NCBI GenBank assembly: GCA_009668945.1
Contig: SBEH01000009.1
Coordinates: 1 to 64,000 of the forward strand
Direction of reading: 5' to 3'
DNA from: Actinomycetota bacterium
GTDB taxonomy: Bacteria; Actinomycetota; Coriobacteriia; Anaerosomatales; Anaerosomataceae
DNA length: 64,000 nt
The position numbers and the translations under genes were made by a program. Position 1 is the stretch's first letter; the number at the start of each line of letters is the position of its first letter. This document shows positions 19,060 through 51,223 of the stretch, piece after piece. A model generated the notes under the pieces. The model did not search any database. It was not told where the DNA came from and saw nothing but the letters and a program-made list of their open reading frames with translations.

Positions 19060-19172
19060 AAGATGCGCGGGCCAAGGCCTCCGAGCCCTGTGCGCCTACC
19101 GCGGAAGAGCGGCCGCCACGGACGCAGGGCCGATAGGGTGGGGACCGGAAACCTCCCCGCCTCCCGCACTCG
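19060..19172 (+). promoter_or_regulatory. Candidate Moco/Tuco riboswitch upstream of tupA
   Basis: The leader contains AAGGCCTCCGAGCC (19074-19087), GATAGGGTGGGGACCGGAAA (19132-19151) and ACCTCCCCGCCTCCC (19151-19165), blocks I recognise from the Moco RNA family. A closing helix GCGGG (19067-19071) with CCCGC (19163-19167) and an arm GCCCTG (19085-19090) with CAGGGC (19125-19130) can form. It ends a few bases before the ribosome binding site of tupA. Tuco variants are known upstream of tungstate transporters. Confidence 0.68.
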
Positions 19173-19185
19173 GAAAGGAGCACAC

Positions 19186-20872: not shown

Positions 20873-21992
20873 CCCTCCGCGTCCCTCCGGAATGCCTGTG
20901 ATCAGCGCCAAAGGAATCATCGTGCGCTATCACCGTCGCACCGTTCTGGACGTCCCGGATTTCGATCTTCGTGACGGCGAGACACACGCCGTTCTCGGAC
21001 CGTCGGGGTCGGGGAAGTCGACGCTCATGCGGGTGGTCGGGCTGCTCGAGCGTCCCACGGAGGGCAGCGTATCACTGGACGGCGTCGCTGTGGACGTGGG
21101 CGACCGGCGTGCGCGCCTGAGCATGGCTGCGGTGTTTCAGAACCCGTACCTGTTCAAAGGTACGGTCGAGCAGAACGTAGCCTACGGCCTCGCGCTTCGG
21201 CGAGTGCCGGCAGACGAGCGCGACGATTGCGTGGCGCGCGCCTTGGACCGCGTTGGGCTGGCGGGAACCCAGAGAGAATCCGCTCTGCGCCTGTCGGGTG
21301 GCGAAGCGCAGCGGGTAGCGCTGGCGCGCGCGCTCGTGCTCGAGCCACGGATCTTGCTGCTGGACGAGCCGCTCTCGTACCTGGACCCGCTCATCAAGCG
21401 CCGCCTGGTCGGCGACTTCTCCGAGATACTTGCCGCCGAGGGTGTGACCGCCCTGTACGTGACCCACGATCAAGACGAGGCCATGGTCGTGGCGGATCGC
21501 GTGAGCATCATGCGCGAGGGCCGCATCGTGCGCAGCGGCGACGTGGACGAGGTCATGGGAGTTCCTACCTCCGAATGGGTTGCCGACTTCATCGGGATGG
21601 ACGGCTCTCTCTGCGGGCGCATAACCACTGCCAAGGAGGGCATCGCCGAGATCGCGATCGAAGGCTTGCTGGTCTACGCGTGCACGGACCTGCAGCCCGG
21701 CGCTGACGTGTTGGTCGGCATCAGACCGGAAGACGTGACGCTGTTCCGGACCGCCGACGGGATACCCGCATCGTCGGCGCGCAACCAGCTTCACATGCGG
21801 GTGGACACGATCGAGCATATGGGTAGCACCGAGCGCGTGAGTCTCGTCACGAACGGCCTGAGGCTTGCTGCATCCGTATCGCGGGCATCAGCGCGTGAGC
21901 TCGGACTTGAGCGCGGGGTCGAAGTCATCGCGCTCTTCAAGGCTACCGCCGTGCGCGTCGCCCCTGCCCACGGCGTACCCGCAGGGGTATGA
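20862..21992 (+). CDS. tupC: Tungstate ABC transporter ATP-binding protein
   Basis: A 376-residue ABC ATPase with Walker A GPSGSGKST, Q-loop VFQNPYLF, signature LSGGEAQRVALARAL and Walker B ILLLDEPLSYLDP. A C-terminal TOBE-like domain (RPEDVTLF, residues about 290-370) may sense the oxyanion. It powers the TupAB permease. ATG at 20862 lies inside tupB, and the gene ends with ATGA overlapping the following gene. Confidence 0.9.
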   Translation: MSDSPPRPSGMPVISAKGIIVRYHRRTVLDVPDFDLRDGETHAVLGPSGSGKSTLMRVVGLLERPTEGSVSLDGVAVDVGDRRARLSMAAVFQNPYLFKGTVEQNVAYGLALRRVPADERDDCVARALDRVGLAGTQRESALRLSGGEAQRVALARALVLEPRILLLDEPLSYLDPLIKRRLVGDFSEILAAEGVTALYVTHDQDEAMVVADRVSIMREGRIVRSGDVDEVMGVPTSEWVADFIGMDGSLCGRITTAKEGIAEIAIEGLLVYACTDLQPGADVLVGIRPEDVTLFRTADGIPASSARNQLHMRVDTIEHMGSTERVSLVTNGLRLAASVSRASARELGLERGVEVIALFKATAVRVAPAHGVPAGV

Positions 21993-23455
21993 TACGAGGG
22001 CTGTCGGAACCCGGTTCCGGCTCGCGGACCGGCAACCGCGACGGAGGACGAGTGCAGGACACCACACGCATACCGGTCACCGCCGCCGTGCTGGCGGGCG
22101 GGCGCTCCCGGCGGATGGGCGTCGACAAGACGCTTCTGCCGTTCGACGGCGAGCCGCTCGTGGCGCGCGTCTCCGACATCGCGGCGCAGGTCTGCGCCAA
22201 CGTCATGGTCGTCACGAACCGTCCCGAAGCCCTGGTCGACGCGGGTCTGCCGGACGCCGTGCGCGTGCTCGCTGATGAGGTCGCGTACCAGGGGCCGCTC
22301 GGCGGTCTGGTGACCGCTCTGGGAGCCGCAACCGACGAGTGGGTCCTCGCCCTCGCTGCGGACATGCCGTGGCTCGAACCGTCGGTCGTCCGCGCACTCT
22401 GGGATGCGCGCGACGGCGCGCAGGTCGTGCTGCCCACGTCGGAGAAGGGGCCGGAGCCGCTGCTCGCGCTGTACCACAGGAGCTGCCTGTCCGAAGCGAG
22501 CCGGGTGCTCGAGTCGGGACGGCGCAGACTCGTCGCGATGTTGCCGCGTGTGAAGGTCGTTGAGGTCTCGCTCGACACGCTCCGGCGCGTCGACCCGGAG
22601 CTTCGCAGCTTCGTGAACGTGAACACGCCGGAGGAGCTGGCGGACGTCCGGGATGAGGCCGTCGGAGCCGAATCGTCACAGACGCCCCGTGTGTCCGTGA
22701 TCGAGGTCGGCACCAGGTGTTCGCGCGGCATGCCCGCCGAGCGTCCGATCACCGTCTTCCTGAATGACGAGGAGATCGCGACTACTCAAGGGACGCCCGA
22801 GGACCTCGCCGACCTGGGCATCGGCTTCCTGGTCGCCGAAGGGTTCCTAGCCGACCGTGACGCGCTGCAGTCTGTGGACGTGGACCAGAAGCGCGGGCTC
22901 GTGTACGTGCGCAGCTCGGAGCAGGCACCCGCTGACGTGGCCGAGCGCAAGCGGTACGTCACCTCGGGTTGCGGGAAGGGCATCACCTTCGCCTCCATCG
23001 GCCATGCTCGGGGTATCGAACCCGTGGTCTCGGATGCCTCCTTCACGTGCGACGCGGTTTACGACCTGATGGGCCAGCTCGCGCGCAACGCCGCTGCGTA
23101 CCGCGACACCGGCGGCATGCACTCATGCGGCCTGGGCGTGGGAGGCGAGCTGGTGCTGTGGCGTGAGGACGTGGGCCGGCACAACGCGCTCGACAAGCTG
23201 TTCGGCCGGGCGTGGCTGGACCGGATCCCCACCCGCGACGCCCTGCTGCTGACAACTGGCCGGATCAGCTACGAGATGGCAGTGAAGGCCGCCAAGGCCC
23301 AGGTTCCGGTGGTGGCGTCGCGTACCGCGGTCACGGACCTTGCGGCTGAGATCGCCGAACGTGCTGCGATCACACTCGTCGGCTACGCCAGAGGCGGCAA
23401 GCTCGTGGTGTATACCAACCCGCATCGTATCGAGCAGAACGAGGAAGGAGTCTAG
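21989..23455 (+). CDS. MobA-FdhD fusion (Moco guanylyltransferase + formate dehydrogenase sulfurtransferase)
   Basis: A 488-residue fusion of two activities. Residues about 28-230 are MobA: LAGGRSRRMGVDKTLLPFDG binds GTP and AADMPWLEP is a family motif; it attaches GMP to the pterin cofactor. Residues about 245-488 are FdhD: TVFLNDEEIATTQGTPEDLADL, VTSGCGKG (one catalytic-type cysteine) and GGMHSCGLG, followed by WREDVGRHNALDKLFG and LLTTGRISYEMAVKAA. FdhD passes sulfur from a cysteine desulfurase to the cofactor of formate dehydrogenase. ATG at 21989 overlaps the tupC stop; GTG at 22052 has a better ribosome binding site and may be the true start. Confidence 0.9.
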   Translation: MIRGLSEPGSGSRTGNRDGGRVQDTTRIPVTAAVLAGGRSRRMGVDKTLLPFDGEPLVARVSDIAAQVCANVMVVTNRPEALVDAGLPDAVRVLADEVAYQGPLGGLVTALGAATDEWVLALAADMPWLEPSVVRALWDARDGAQVVLPTSEKGPEPLLALYHRSCLSEASRVLESGRRRLVAMLPRVKVVEVSLDTLRRVDPELRSFVNVNTPEELADVRDEAVGAESSQTPRVSVIEVGTRCSRGMPAERPITVFLNDEEIATTQGTPEDLADLGIGFLVAEGFLADRDALQSVDVDQKRGLVYVRSSEQAPADVAERKRYVTSGCGKGITFASIGHARGIEPVVSDASFTCDAVYDLMGQLARNAAAYRDTGGMHSCGLGVGGELVLWREDVGRHNALDKLFGRAWLDRIPTRDALLLTTGRISYEMAVKAAKAQVPVVASRTAVTDLAAEIAERAAITLVGYARGGKLVVYTNPHRIEQNEEGV

Positions 23456-46568: not shown

Positions 46569-46901
46569 TCAGGCGGCGCCGAGGCGAGCTTGAACCGCTC
46601 GCAGGATGGCCGGGTAGGAGACCGAGCCGTCGCAGACCGGCACACCGTCCACGACGGTCACCGGATAGGCCAGTCCGTCGGCCTGGATCCTCGTGACCAT
46701 CTCGCCGTGGGCTGCCAGGACTTCCGGGCGGCTGGTGTCGTGGTAGACGATGCTGGCACGGTCACCGTACCGATACTCCACCTCGGCGCGGATGATGGCG
46801 GTGATCTCCTCCGGAGACCAGGAGGGCCCTCAGCCGCCACTCCAGCAGGCCGTTTCGGCAGGGAAGTCGAAGACCTCCACACTGACTTCCGGTTCGGGCA
46901 T
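46569..46901 (-). CDS. Candidate selenoprotein, thioredoxin-like, with in-frame UGA (Sec24)
   Basis: Reading through one in-frame TGA (46832-46830) gives a continuous 110-residue thioredoxin-like protein. The N-terminal part MPEPEVSVEVFDFPAETACWSGG precedes the stop, and GPSWSPEEITAIIRAEVEY, IVYHDTSRPEVLAAH and AYPVTVVDGVPVCDG follow in the same frame. The UGA falls at a redox position (C19-x4-U24-GPS), where Cys homologs read CC-x3-CGP. A hairpin next to the UGA resembles a bacterial SECIS. The pattern resembles SaoT-type thioredoxin-like (seleno)proteins from memory. It could instead be a pseudogene or sequencing error. A ferredoxin gene sits eight bases upstream. Confidence 0.68.
46802..46832 (-). 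promoter_or_regulatory. SECIS-like hairpin following the in-frame UGA
   Basis: After the UGA (46832-46830) and a nine-base spacer, UGGUCUC (46820-46814) pairs with GAGAUCA (46808-46802) around the loop CGGAG. The loop begins 16 bases from the UGA and has G in its first two positions, which fits the bacterial SECIS pattern as I recall it. Confidence 0.6.
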
Positions 46902-46909
46902 CTTCGCTC

Positions 46910-47113
46910 CTATCCGACTCGTACCGCGCCGCCAGGACAGTGCAGCATGCAGACCGCGCAGCCCGTGCACCGTTGACGGTCGATCTCGTAACCCTTCGCC
47001 CCCGAACGCGTACCCCCGCCTATCGGCACGATCGCCCCACGAGGACAGACTCTCCGTGCGGGGCAGCGAGGAGAGCGGTCGCAGACAGATTCGTCGATCG
47101 TGGCGGTTCGCAC
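46910..47113 (-). CDS. Small ferredoxin-like 4Fe-4S protein
   Basis: A 67-residue protein with one canonical 4Fe-4S motif ([12 protein letters not shown]) and a second unusual group [15 protein letters not shown]-x5-C-x5-CP, that may bind a non-standard cluster or a metal. It precedes the candidate selenoprotein in a two-gene unit and could give or take its electrons. GTG at 47113 has AAGGA eight bases upstream; ATG at 47149 is possible. Confidence 0.78.
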
Positions 47114-47273
47114 AGAGTTGTTCCTTAGCGGGTCGGGGTGCAGGTGCATGATATACCCCAGAGGGTATGGCGGGCAAGTAGCCGCGAGATTGCGTGCCCC
47201 CGCGCACGCGACGCTCACTGCTGGTAGGATTATCGGGGACACTCACCGAACGACTCCGCGAGGGTGGATGCAC

Positions 47274-48892: not shown

Positions 48893-48976
48893 GCCGGCGA
48901 TAGGCGTGGGCAGGAGAACGACCGGCACCACCGAATAACTGTGCTGGATGAGTATCGTTCAGGTCACTCGGACTGT

Positions 48977-49005
48977 ATTGTCCCTTCACAAGGCTTCGGC
49001 TATCG
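48977..49005 (+). promoter_or_regulatory. Promoter of the multiheme cytochrome gene
   Basis: TTGTCC (48977-48982) and TATCGT (49000-49005) separated by 17 bases, 76 bases before the start codon. Confidence 0.5.
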
Positions 49006-49081
49006 TGTGCAGAAGGGCGGCCAGGGGGGTTGTCTTTCTGCGGTCGCCACGGGCCTTGGGACGCGAGCGAGGAGAATGCGC

Positions 49082-51223
49082 ATGGCGAAGAACGGGAAAC
49101 GTGGGCTGATCGGCGGGTTCAAGGATCCGGTTTCGCGCCCGCGGTTCATCATCTGGGCGGGAGTGGTGGTGCTCTCACTGCTCGCGTTCCTCATCGTTGC
49201 ATTCGGCGCGTCTTCCACGTACTGGTTCTGCAGTACGCTGTGCCACTCGGTACAGGGAGATGCGATCGCCGCGTACAACCAGGGGTCGCACAGCACGGTG
49301 AACTGCCTGTCGTGTCACGAGCCGGTCAATGGCGGACCGATCATCTTCACGTACAGGAAGGCCGAGGCGGGTGTTCTGGGTGCATATCAGCTGGCGACCA
49401 AGACCTATGCCTCGCCGCTGAATCCGATCAGCCACCTCGCTCTCAATCGCAGCGAGATGGACTTCTCCGACGACCACTGCACGCAGTGCCATAACCTGAA
49501 GAACCGTGTAGTGACGCCGAGCGAGGGCATCATCATCAACCACGATGCTCACACGGAGAAGGAGATCAACTGCACCGCGTGCCACAACCGTGTGGCACAC
49601 CCCGAGGACGGACTCGAGACCATCGCGAAGAATCCGGAGACGGGCGAGCCAGCTGCCAAGCATGCCGACTTCATGACGATGACGGCCTGCTTCCGTTGTC
49701 ACACGCTGACGAGCGAGTCGCCCTCGGGCGCCGAGTTCAAGGCTCCCGGCGCTTGTGCGACGTGCCACCCGGCGGACTTCGATCTGAAGCCGCCGAATCA
49801 CGACGCCGCCGACTTCTATCCCAAGGGCCATGCGCATCTCGCGATGATGGAAGTCGACCACGTGACCGGCCGCCCGGCGGAGAACATCATCCGTCCGGTC
49901 GAGCACGGCAAGTCCGAGGAGGGCGAGGAGTCCGCGGGCGAAGCAGAAGCCGAGGGTGAAGCCGAAGCAGAAGCAGAAGCCGAGGGTGAGGCCGAGGGCG
50001 CGGAGGAGGAGCACGATCCAGAGGTACTCCCGGTCGTTGCGGTGCAGGAAGTCGACTATTGCACCACCTGCCACGTGGAGAATGCCTTCTGCCTCGGGTG
50101 TCACGGCATGGAGATGCCGCACTCCGAGGAGTTCGAGACCAAGACGCATCCCGAGGCTGTCGCCACTCAGCTCGACAAGTGCGAGTTCTGCCACCAGCAG
50201 TCGGCAACGTTCTTCTGCGACAACTGTCACCATGGCAGCAAGGTCGGCTGGACGTACGATCCGGCAACTCCGTGGCAGAACCAGCACGCGAAGACCGTGG
50301 TCGAGAAGGGTGTTGCCGGTTGCCTCGGCGCATGCCACGAGCAGCAGTTCTGCGTGGACTGCCACACGGCGCTGAAGCCACTGCCGACCTCCCATAAGGC
50401 CGGTGACTGGCTGCACGCCGGACTCACTGTGACGTCCTATCCGGACGGGCACGCGGCACCAACGGCCGTGCATGCCCTGTCGGCTCAGAAGTCGATCGAT
50501 TCCTGCGATGTCTGTCACGGTCCTGGTGGTGTCAGTGCAGCGTTCTGCGCGAGCTGTCACGGCATCGAGATGCCGCACCCGGACACGTTCAAGACGAATC
50601 ACGTGTCAGGCCGGAACACCCCGCAGGTCTGCGCGAACTGCCACAAGGCCGCCGAGCTCTGCTCGGACTGCCACCACAAGGGAGCTGTGAACGGCGTGCC
50701 CTGGCAGAACCAGCATCCTGTGGCGGTTGCCGCCGAGGGTGCGGACCCGTGCTTCGAGAAGTGCCACCAGGACAAGACGTTCTGCGTGAACTGCCACACC
50801 ACGCTCAAGGCCATCCCGGCGTCGCACAAGGTCGGCGATTGGACCCGCCGAGCCACAGATGCCGGTGCGGCGCACCAGCTGGCTTACAAGGCCAGCCCGA
50901 CAGCGTGCGACTACTGCCACGGTGACGGCGGCGTGAATGCGGCGTTCTGTCAGAGCTGCCATCAGCTGCCCATGCCGCATGCCGAGAAGTACGCGGACGA
51001 GGGTCACCAGAAGGACCTACAGGCTGGCGTGACGAAGCCCGTCTGCCTGAACTGTCACGCGCAGATCTTCTGCGACAGCTGCCACCACGAGGGTGCGGTC
51101 GCCGATCAGCCGTGGCGCACGTACCATCCGGCGATCGTGAAGGACAAGGGCGCTCAGCCCTGCTTCGAGTGCCACGAACCGACCGTCTGCTCGCACTGCC
51201 ACGTGGGTCTGTCCAAGCAGTAG
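49082..51223 (+). CDS. Membrane-anchored multiheme c-type cytochrome (21 CxxCH + 3 CxxxCH)
   Basis: A 713-residue electron-transfer protein with an N-terminal anchor helix (IIWAGVVVLSLLAFLIVAFG). I count 21 CxxCH haem motifs and three CxxxCH motifs (CSTLCH, CLGACH, CFEKCH). The first six form a NapC/NirT-like module, then an acidic Glu/Ala linker (residues about 278-313) leads to three tandem modules of six. Each of these has the order CxxCH, FCxxCH-GxxMPH, CxxCH, CxxCHH, Cx(2-3)CH, CxxCH. It likely takes electrons from menaquinol to a partner or acceptor outside. ATG at 49082 has GGAG upstream. No biogenesis genes are near. Confidence 0.93.
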   Translation: MAKNGKRGLIGGFKDPVSRPRFIIWAGVVVLSLLAFLIVAFGASSTYWFCSTLCHSVQGDAIAAYNQGSHSTVNCLSCHEPVNGGPIIFTYRKAEAGVLGAYQLATKTYASPLNPISHLALNRSEMDFSDDHCTQCHNLKNRVVTPSEGIIINHDAHTEKEINCTACHNRVAHPEDGLETIAKNPETGEPAAKHADFMTMTACFRCHTLTSESPSGAEFKAPGACATCHPADFDLKPPNHDAADFYPKGHAHLAMMEVDHVTGRPAENIIRPVEHGKSEEGEESAGEAEAEGEAEAEAEAEGEAEGAEEEHDPEVLPVVAVQEVDYCTTCHVENAFCLGCHGMEMPHSEEFETKTHPEAVATQLDKCEFCHQQSATFFCDNCHHGSKVGWTYDPATPWQNQHAKTVVEKGVAGCLGACHEQQFCVDCHTALKPLPTSHKAGDWLHAGLTVTSYPDGHAAPTAVHALSAQKSIDSCDVCHGPGGVSAAFCASCHGIEMPHPDTFKTNHVSGRNTPQVCANCHKAAELCSDCHHKGAVNGVPWQNQHPVAVAAEGADPCFEKCHQDKTFCVNCHTTLKAIPASHKVGDWTRRATDAGAAHQLAYKASPTACDYCHGDGGVNAAFCQSCHQLPMPHAEKYADEGHQKDLQAGVTKPVCLNCHAQIFCDSCHHEGAVADQPWRTYHPAIVKDKGAQPCFECHEPTVCSHCHVGLSKQ

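Follow-up and report, generated by a model that had tools for sequence, protein, structure and literature searches.

In this study, we analysed a 64,000-nucleotide stretch of Actinomycetota DNA, hereafter the window, and found that a seemingly broken small gene almost certainly encodes a selenocysteine (Sec) protein of a real and widely conserved family, as judged from comparison of its sequence with those of relatives. The original prediction of a new C-x4-U selenoprotein was borne out: Sec machinery in the genome, a conserved SECIS hairpin, Sec or Cys in the homologues and linkage to a ferredoxin gene all hold. The family spans an order and several other Actinomycetota lineages, with Sec in every close member. 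It is new to the catalogues, being missing both from the 2026 catalogue of 119 families, which lists no DUF1462, ArsD or C-x4-U selenoprotein family (PMC13188914), and from NCBIfam 20, where the window protein had no match up to E=1 and distant members had none of note. Because each copy appears as short fragments under the standard code, annotation easily misses the gene. Taken as a whole, the locus is likely best explained as a UGA-decoded ferredoxin-selenoprotein operon with a thiol or persulfide reductase role and CsoR/CstR control.

The features of the locus are collected in Table 1. As had been proposed, a lone TGA occupies the redox position of a thioredoxin-like gene. The gene lies on the minus strand and ends with a second TGA at 46569-46571 (minus strand). 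Only 8 nt separate the stop codon of the upstream ferredoxin gene from the selenoprotein ATG, and a GGAG ribosome-binding site is found there. The two genes very probably form a functional operon in which ferredoxin and selenoprotein work as a unit.

Table 1. Features of the selenoprotein locus (window coordinates).
Feature	Position	Strand	Basis
Selenoprotein gene, ATG start, 110 aa, thioredoxin-fold product	46569..46901	-	Read-through translation; 27-row family alignment
In-frame UGA, read as Sec24 in Cys19-x4-Sec24 (CWSGG-U-GPS)	46830..46832	-	Read-through translation; conservation in relatives
SECIS hairpin UGGUCUC-CGGAG-GAGAUCA	46802..46820	-	Codon fixation; pairing across subfamilies; fit to bacterial model
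Partner ferredoxin gene, GTG start, C-x5-C-x5-CP and CxxCxxCxxxCP	46910..47113	-	Motifs read in translation
Operator-like palindrome ATACCCCAGAGGGTAT, CsoR/CstR type	47153..47168	.	Exact copy before the gene in 29/29 loci
Sigma-70-like promoter TTGCCC-18-TATCAT enclosing the operator	47148..47177	-	Similar pattern in relatives

Scanning of a species-genome collection with the read-through protein yielded 29 related loci, all labelled as Actinomycetota and the majority as Coriobacteriia, Anaerosomatales or unplaced Actinobacteria. TGA stood at the same codon in every one of them, and the expected continuation of the coding and family pattern across it was evident, both flanking halves of the protein being conserved in every locus. 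A profile search within the class recovered the gene in 63 of 398 genomes (61 of them from the same taxonomic order), with exactly one TGA in each of the 63. Such constancy in both sets indicates that the TGA locus is more than chance. Across the phylum, the distant subfamilies f46, f48, f98 and f54 also have TGA (SCGFG-U-GS, DSCSGG-U-GPS, VCSGGG-U-G and ACRGGG-U-A). The homologue comparison suggested with the prediction thus gave TGA in all close relatives, together with a distant homologue (L197) with Cys in precisely the place of Sec (CEPAD-C-GP, E 7.5e-15); another sequence, L202, reads CSCGG-C-G.

The predicted seven-pair hairpin was likewise present. Downstream of the UGA, GGGCCCTCC is followed by a 7-bp stem (UGGUCUC/GAGAUCA) closing the loop CGGAG; the stem begins ten bases past the UGA, the loop lies 16 nt past it, and the whole hairpin spans 10-28 nt downstream. 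Published bacterial SECIS rules describe a loop of 3-9 nt with G in the first two loop positions, a distance of 16-37 nt from the UGA and a stem of 4-16 bp (PMC13188914), and the hairpin (7 bp, CGGAG, 16 nt) falls within all of them. Conservation extended to synonymous sites. Among 39 unique sequences, codons +4 to +9 counted from the UGA (TGG TCT CCG GAG GAG ATC) were fixed, the exceptions being one CCT and one amino-acid change; the hairpin Ser codon was TCT in all 39, and adjoining Gly, Pro, Ser and Thr positions used four or five codons each. A few further family members read GPSWT in this region. Across subfamilies, stem pairing was retained in 97.6% of cells, compared with 25-54% in slid controls, and one stem pair changed from G-C to U-A in a compensatory manner in distant subfamilies, whose loops, with that of the window, were CGGAG, UGGAA, GGGCU and AGGCN.

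The genome of the window encodes the Sec machinery that the original prediction had proposed to look for: selD, selA, selB and tRNA-Sec (selC; anticodon TCA) lie in one 5-kb cluster. The selD gene (L039, G000:C21:242395-243312) carries a single interrupting TGA of its own (SKAG-U-AAKWG), a condition resembling the Sec-containing SelD known elsewhere. In the class, selA was matched in 52 of 63 gene-positive genomes and in 134 of the other 335, a count that ignores kinship. The 11 gene-positive genomes in which selA was not found are mostly fragmented drafts. One of the genomes with the TGA gene in which selA was not found (G045) is 98% complete in 10 contigs, and it counts against the Sec reading.

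The small ferredoxin anticipated upstream, with its nonstandard motif, proved to be a near-constant companion. The pattern CDRSPxCPARRxCPxGAI...CxxCxxCxxxC precedes the selenoprotein in 28 of the 29 related loci; in the remaining one (L033), operator and selenoprotein are present and no ferredoxin was found at the locus. Ligation of the clusters in 2[4Fe-4S] ferredoxins involves two CxxCxxCxxxCP motifs. Here, the second motif is complete and the first has Cys spacings of 5 and 5, and this odd C-x5-C-x5-CP arrangement is the norm throughout the ferredoxin family; by analogy, the first cluster may be without one Cys ligand. Linkage with ferredoxin is maintained in distant lineages despite rearranged gene order, which is operator, ferredoxin, small coiled-coil-like protein and selenoprotein in f46, and coiled-coil, selenoprotein and ferredoxin in f98. 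The small coiled-coil-like protein of these distant operons (L092:1148-1465, L094:1009-1467 and L082:478-765) is conserved (ILGQTGVHINA), and no family match was found for it.

The operon also shares a control site with its relatives. The palindrome ATACCC-N4-GGGTAT was exact in all 29 related loci, mostly about 345 nt upstream of the UGA, and was retained at -142 in the locus without ferredoxin; in relatives it occupies the whole spacer of a TTGC-N18-TATAAT-like promoter. Exact copies numbered 1-9 in 30 of 31 genomes, and the reversed control gave 0. The copy at the locus is the only exact one in the genome of the window, where one-mismatch operators had no clear target gene apart from a site at window 21975-21990, just before a MobA-like gene (21989-23455, plus strand); one relative genome (L146) has an exact operator before MobA. 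In ten relatives, other copies precede thioredoxin genes, which are divergent from a gene for a CbiX/ferrochelatase-like protein, or stand before genes for SBF transporters, CcdA, rhodanese lipoproteins and an FAD/4Fe-4S oxidase.

From this operator and its regulon we infer CsoR/CstR-type repression. Known CsoR/CstR operons share with the locus a TAC...GTA palindrome, G/C tracts and overlap with the promoter (PMC3902906), and repressors of the CstR type respond to reactive sulfur species and regulate related genes along with rhodaneses (PMC10318464, PMC5480029), which the rhodanese-type regulon members here resemble (PMC10318464). Two differences from those operons count against such control: the repressor gene is unlinked, and TAC and GTA are 8 bases apart rather than 9, the CsoR sites of Streptomyces (ATATACCCCTNAGGGGTATAT) being one base longer (PMC3902906). 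The genome of the window has a single DUF156 (PF02583) repressor gene, whose own promoter carries ATACCCCCGAGGGGTAT. On inspection, its product keeps two cysteines and is without the CsoR His, as in CstR. No selenoprotein-ferredoxin target was found in the CsoR/CstR literature examined. These features suggest that a repressor of this type is predicted to bind and probably controls the operon.

As to protein family, the selenoprotein is related to both DUF1462/YuzD and ArsD, its nearest families by sequence and fold comparison. Pfam DUF1462/YuzD (PF07315) scored 29.7 bits against a gathering score of 25; the f46 subfamily stayed under this cut-off with 19.4 bits, and ArsD (PF06953) reached 16.7 bits against a gathering score of 27. 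Since a single-sequence phmmer search against the PDB gave no useful match, a family profile was needed, and its best match was S. aureus YuzD (1xg8). The AF2 model (pLDDT 85.8, low at the active loop) places the Cys19-x4-Sec24 pair on a loop before helix 1, and it matched 1xg8 best, followed by ArsD (3ktb, 3kgk) and thioredoxins. Unlike the selenoprotein, YuzD carries a C-x2-C motif, and neither Sec nor a ferredoxin partner has been described for it. The original prediction had also raised a relation to SaoT (NF040730), another small thioredoxin-like (seleno)protein. We rejected this link at the sequence level, because the SaoT motif is UxxC rather than C-x4-U and NF040730 was unmatched. Our literature search found no work joining selenoproteins with DUF1462, and its sole match for selenoproteins with ArsD deals with an inhibitor of thioredoxin reductase in cancer cells.

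In the mechanism that we propose, SelB and tRNA-Sec would decode the UGA as selenocysteine under guidance of the downstream hairpin. Sec24 would then attack a disulfide, a persulfide (S-S or S-Sn bond) or a similar electrophile, Cys19 would resolve the selenenylsulfide, and the partner ferredoxin would give electrons that re-reduce the Cys19-Sec24 pair. The operon would stay silent as long as a CsoR/CstR-family repressor occupied the region between -35 and -10, and thiol, sulfane-sulfur or metal stress would lift this repression. Ferredoxin-linked thiol or persulfide reduction is the most likely of the functions considered, although as an assignment it is tentative and slightly doubtful. Rather doubtful, in turn, is the broader notion of a new class of ferredoxin-driven selenoenzyme in anaerobic Actinomycetota, in which a Sec-containing ArsD/YuzD-fold reductase would be induced by sulfane-sulfur or metal stress, work on a ferredoxin whose first cluster has an open site, and reduce persulfides, disulfides or metalloid adducts. 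With its near-invariant ferredoxin partner and shared control site, the family offers a directly testable link between selenium use, ferredoxin and sulfur or metal stress.

It is fairly unlikely that the protein is instead a selenol redox enzyme of some other kind, such as one that reduces peroxide, quinone or selenite, with thioredoxin in place of the ferredoxin as its donor. The thioredoxin fold and the C/U pair would suit such an enzyme, as would the thioredoxin gene that bears the same operator in relatives; however, the conserved operon partner is a ferredoxin, and peroxidase families were unmatched in our family searches.

We regard as quite unlikely a selenium version of ArsD acting as a chaperone for metals or metalloids. 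In such a role, Cys19 and Sec24 would bind As(III), Hg, Cu or another soft ion of this sort, which the protein would then deliver to a carrier or transporter, with no redox cycle involved. This reading was retained because of the likeness to ArsD: besides the structural matches noted above, the family profile also picks up ArsD in L097, aligning C-STGV-C-GPS with C-WSGG-U-GPS, and this alignment puts Sec at the ArsD position that we take to be Cys18. CsoR-type operators, moreover, usually serve metal control (PMC3902906), and SBF-family transporters of relatives carry the same operator. Yet of the ArsD triad Cys12-Cys13-Cys18, Cys12 is absent from the selenoprotein family, and the locus has neither an ArsA partner nor an ars operon. 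A search of the genome of the window for ArsA returned short P-loop fragments and no full-length protein, so an ArsD-ArsA pair was ruled out. The ferredoxin partner and the co-regulation with thioredoxin, rhodanese and CcdA genes also suggest redox chemistry, as in the ferredoxin-linked reductase preferred here.

Finally, that the UGA is a true stop (a pseudogene, a sequencing error or two short genes) is extremely improbable and was rejected, for although nothing but short frames results under the standard code, the same TGA recurs in over 60 genomes from many genera with protein conserved on both sides and synonymous hairpin codons fixed, Sec machinery is in the genome and a Cys homologue is known.

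Several further observations were made. A large multihaem c-type cytochrome with many CxxCH motifs is encoded near the locus (window 48941-51223), and a molybdenum/tungsten (Moco) riboswitch lies at window 19079-19180 (49.5 bits). In addition, f46 genomes have a second YuzD-like gene. The f46 matches free of an internal stop (L098 and L205) have a stop codon immediately outside the match, which in L098 is TGA. The second gene has an in-frame TGA at SG-U-RSC (UxxC) in L098 (minus strand), and L205 (minus strand) has a stop at the corresponding place. This second gene possibly represents another, separate selenoprotein family.
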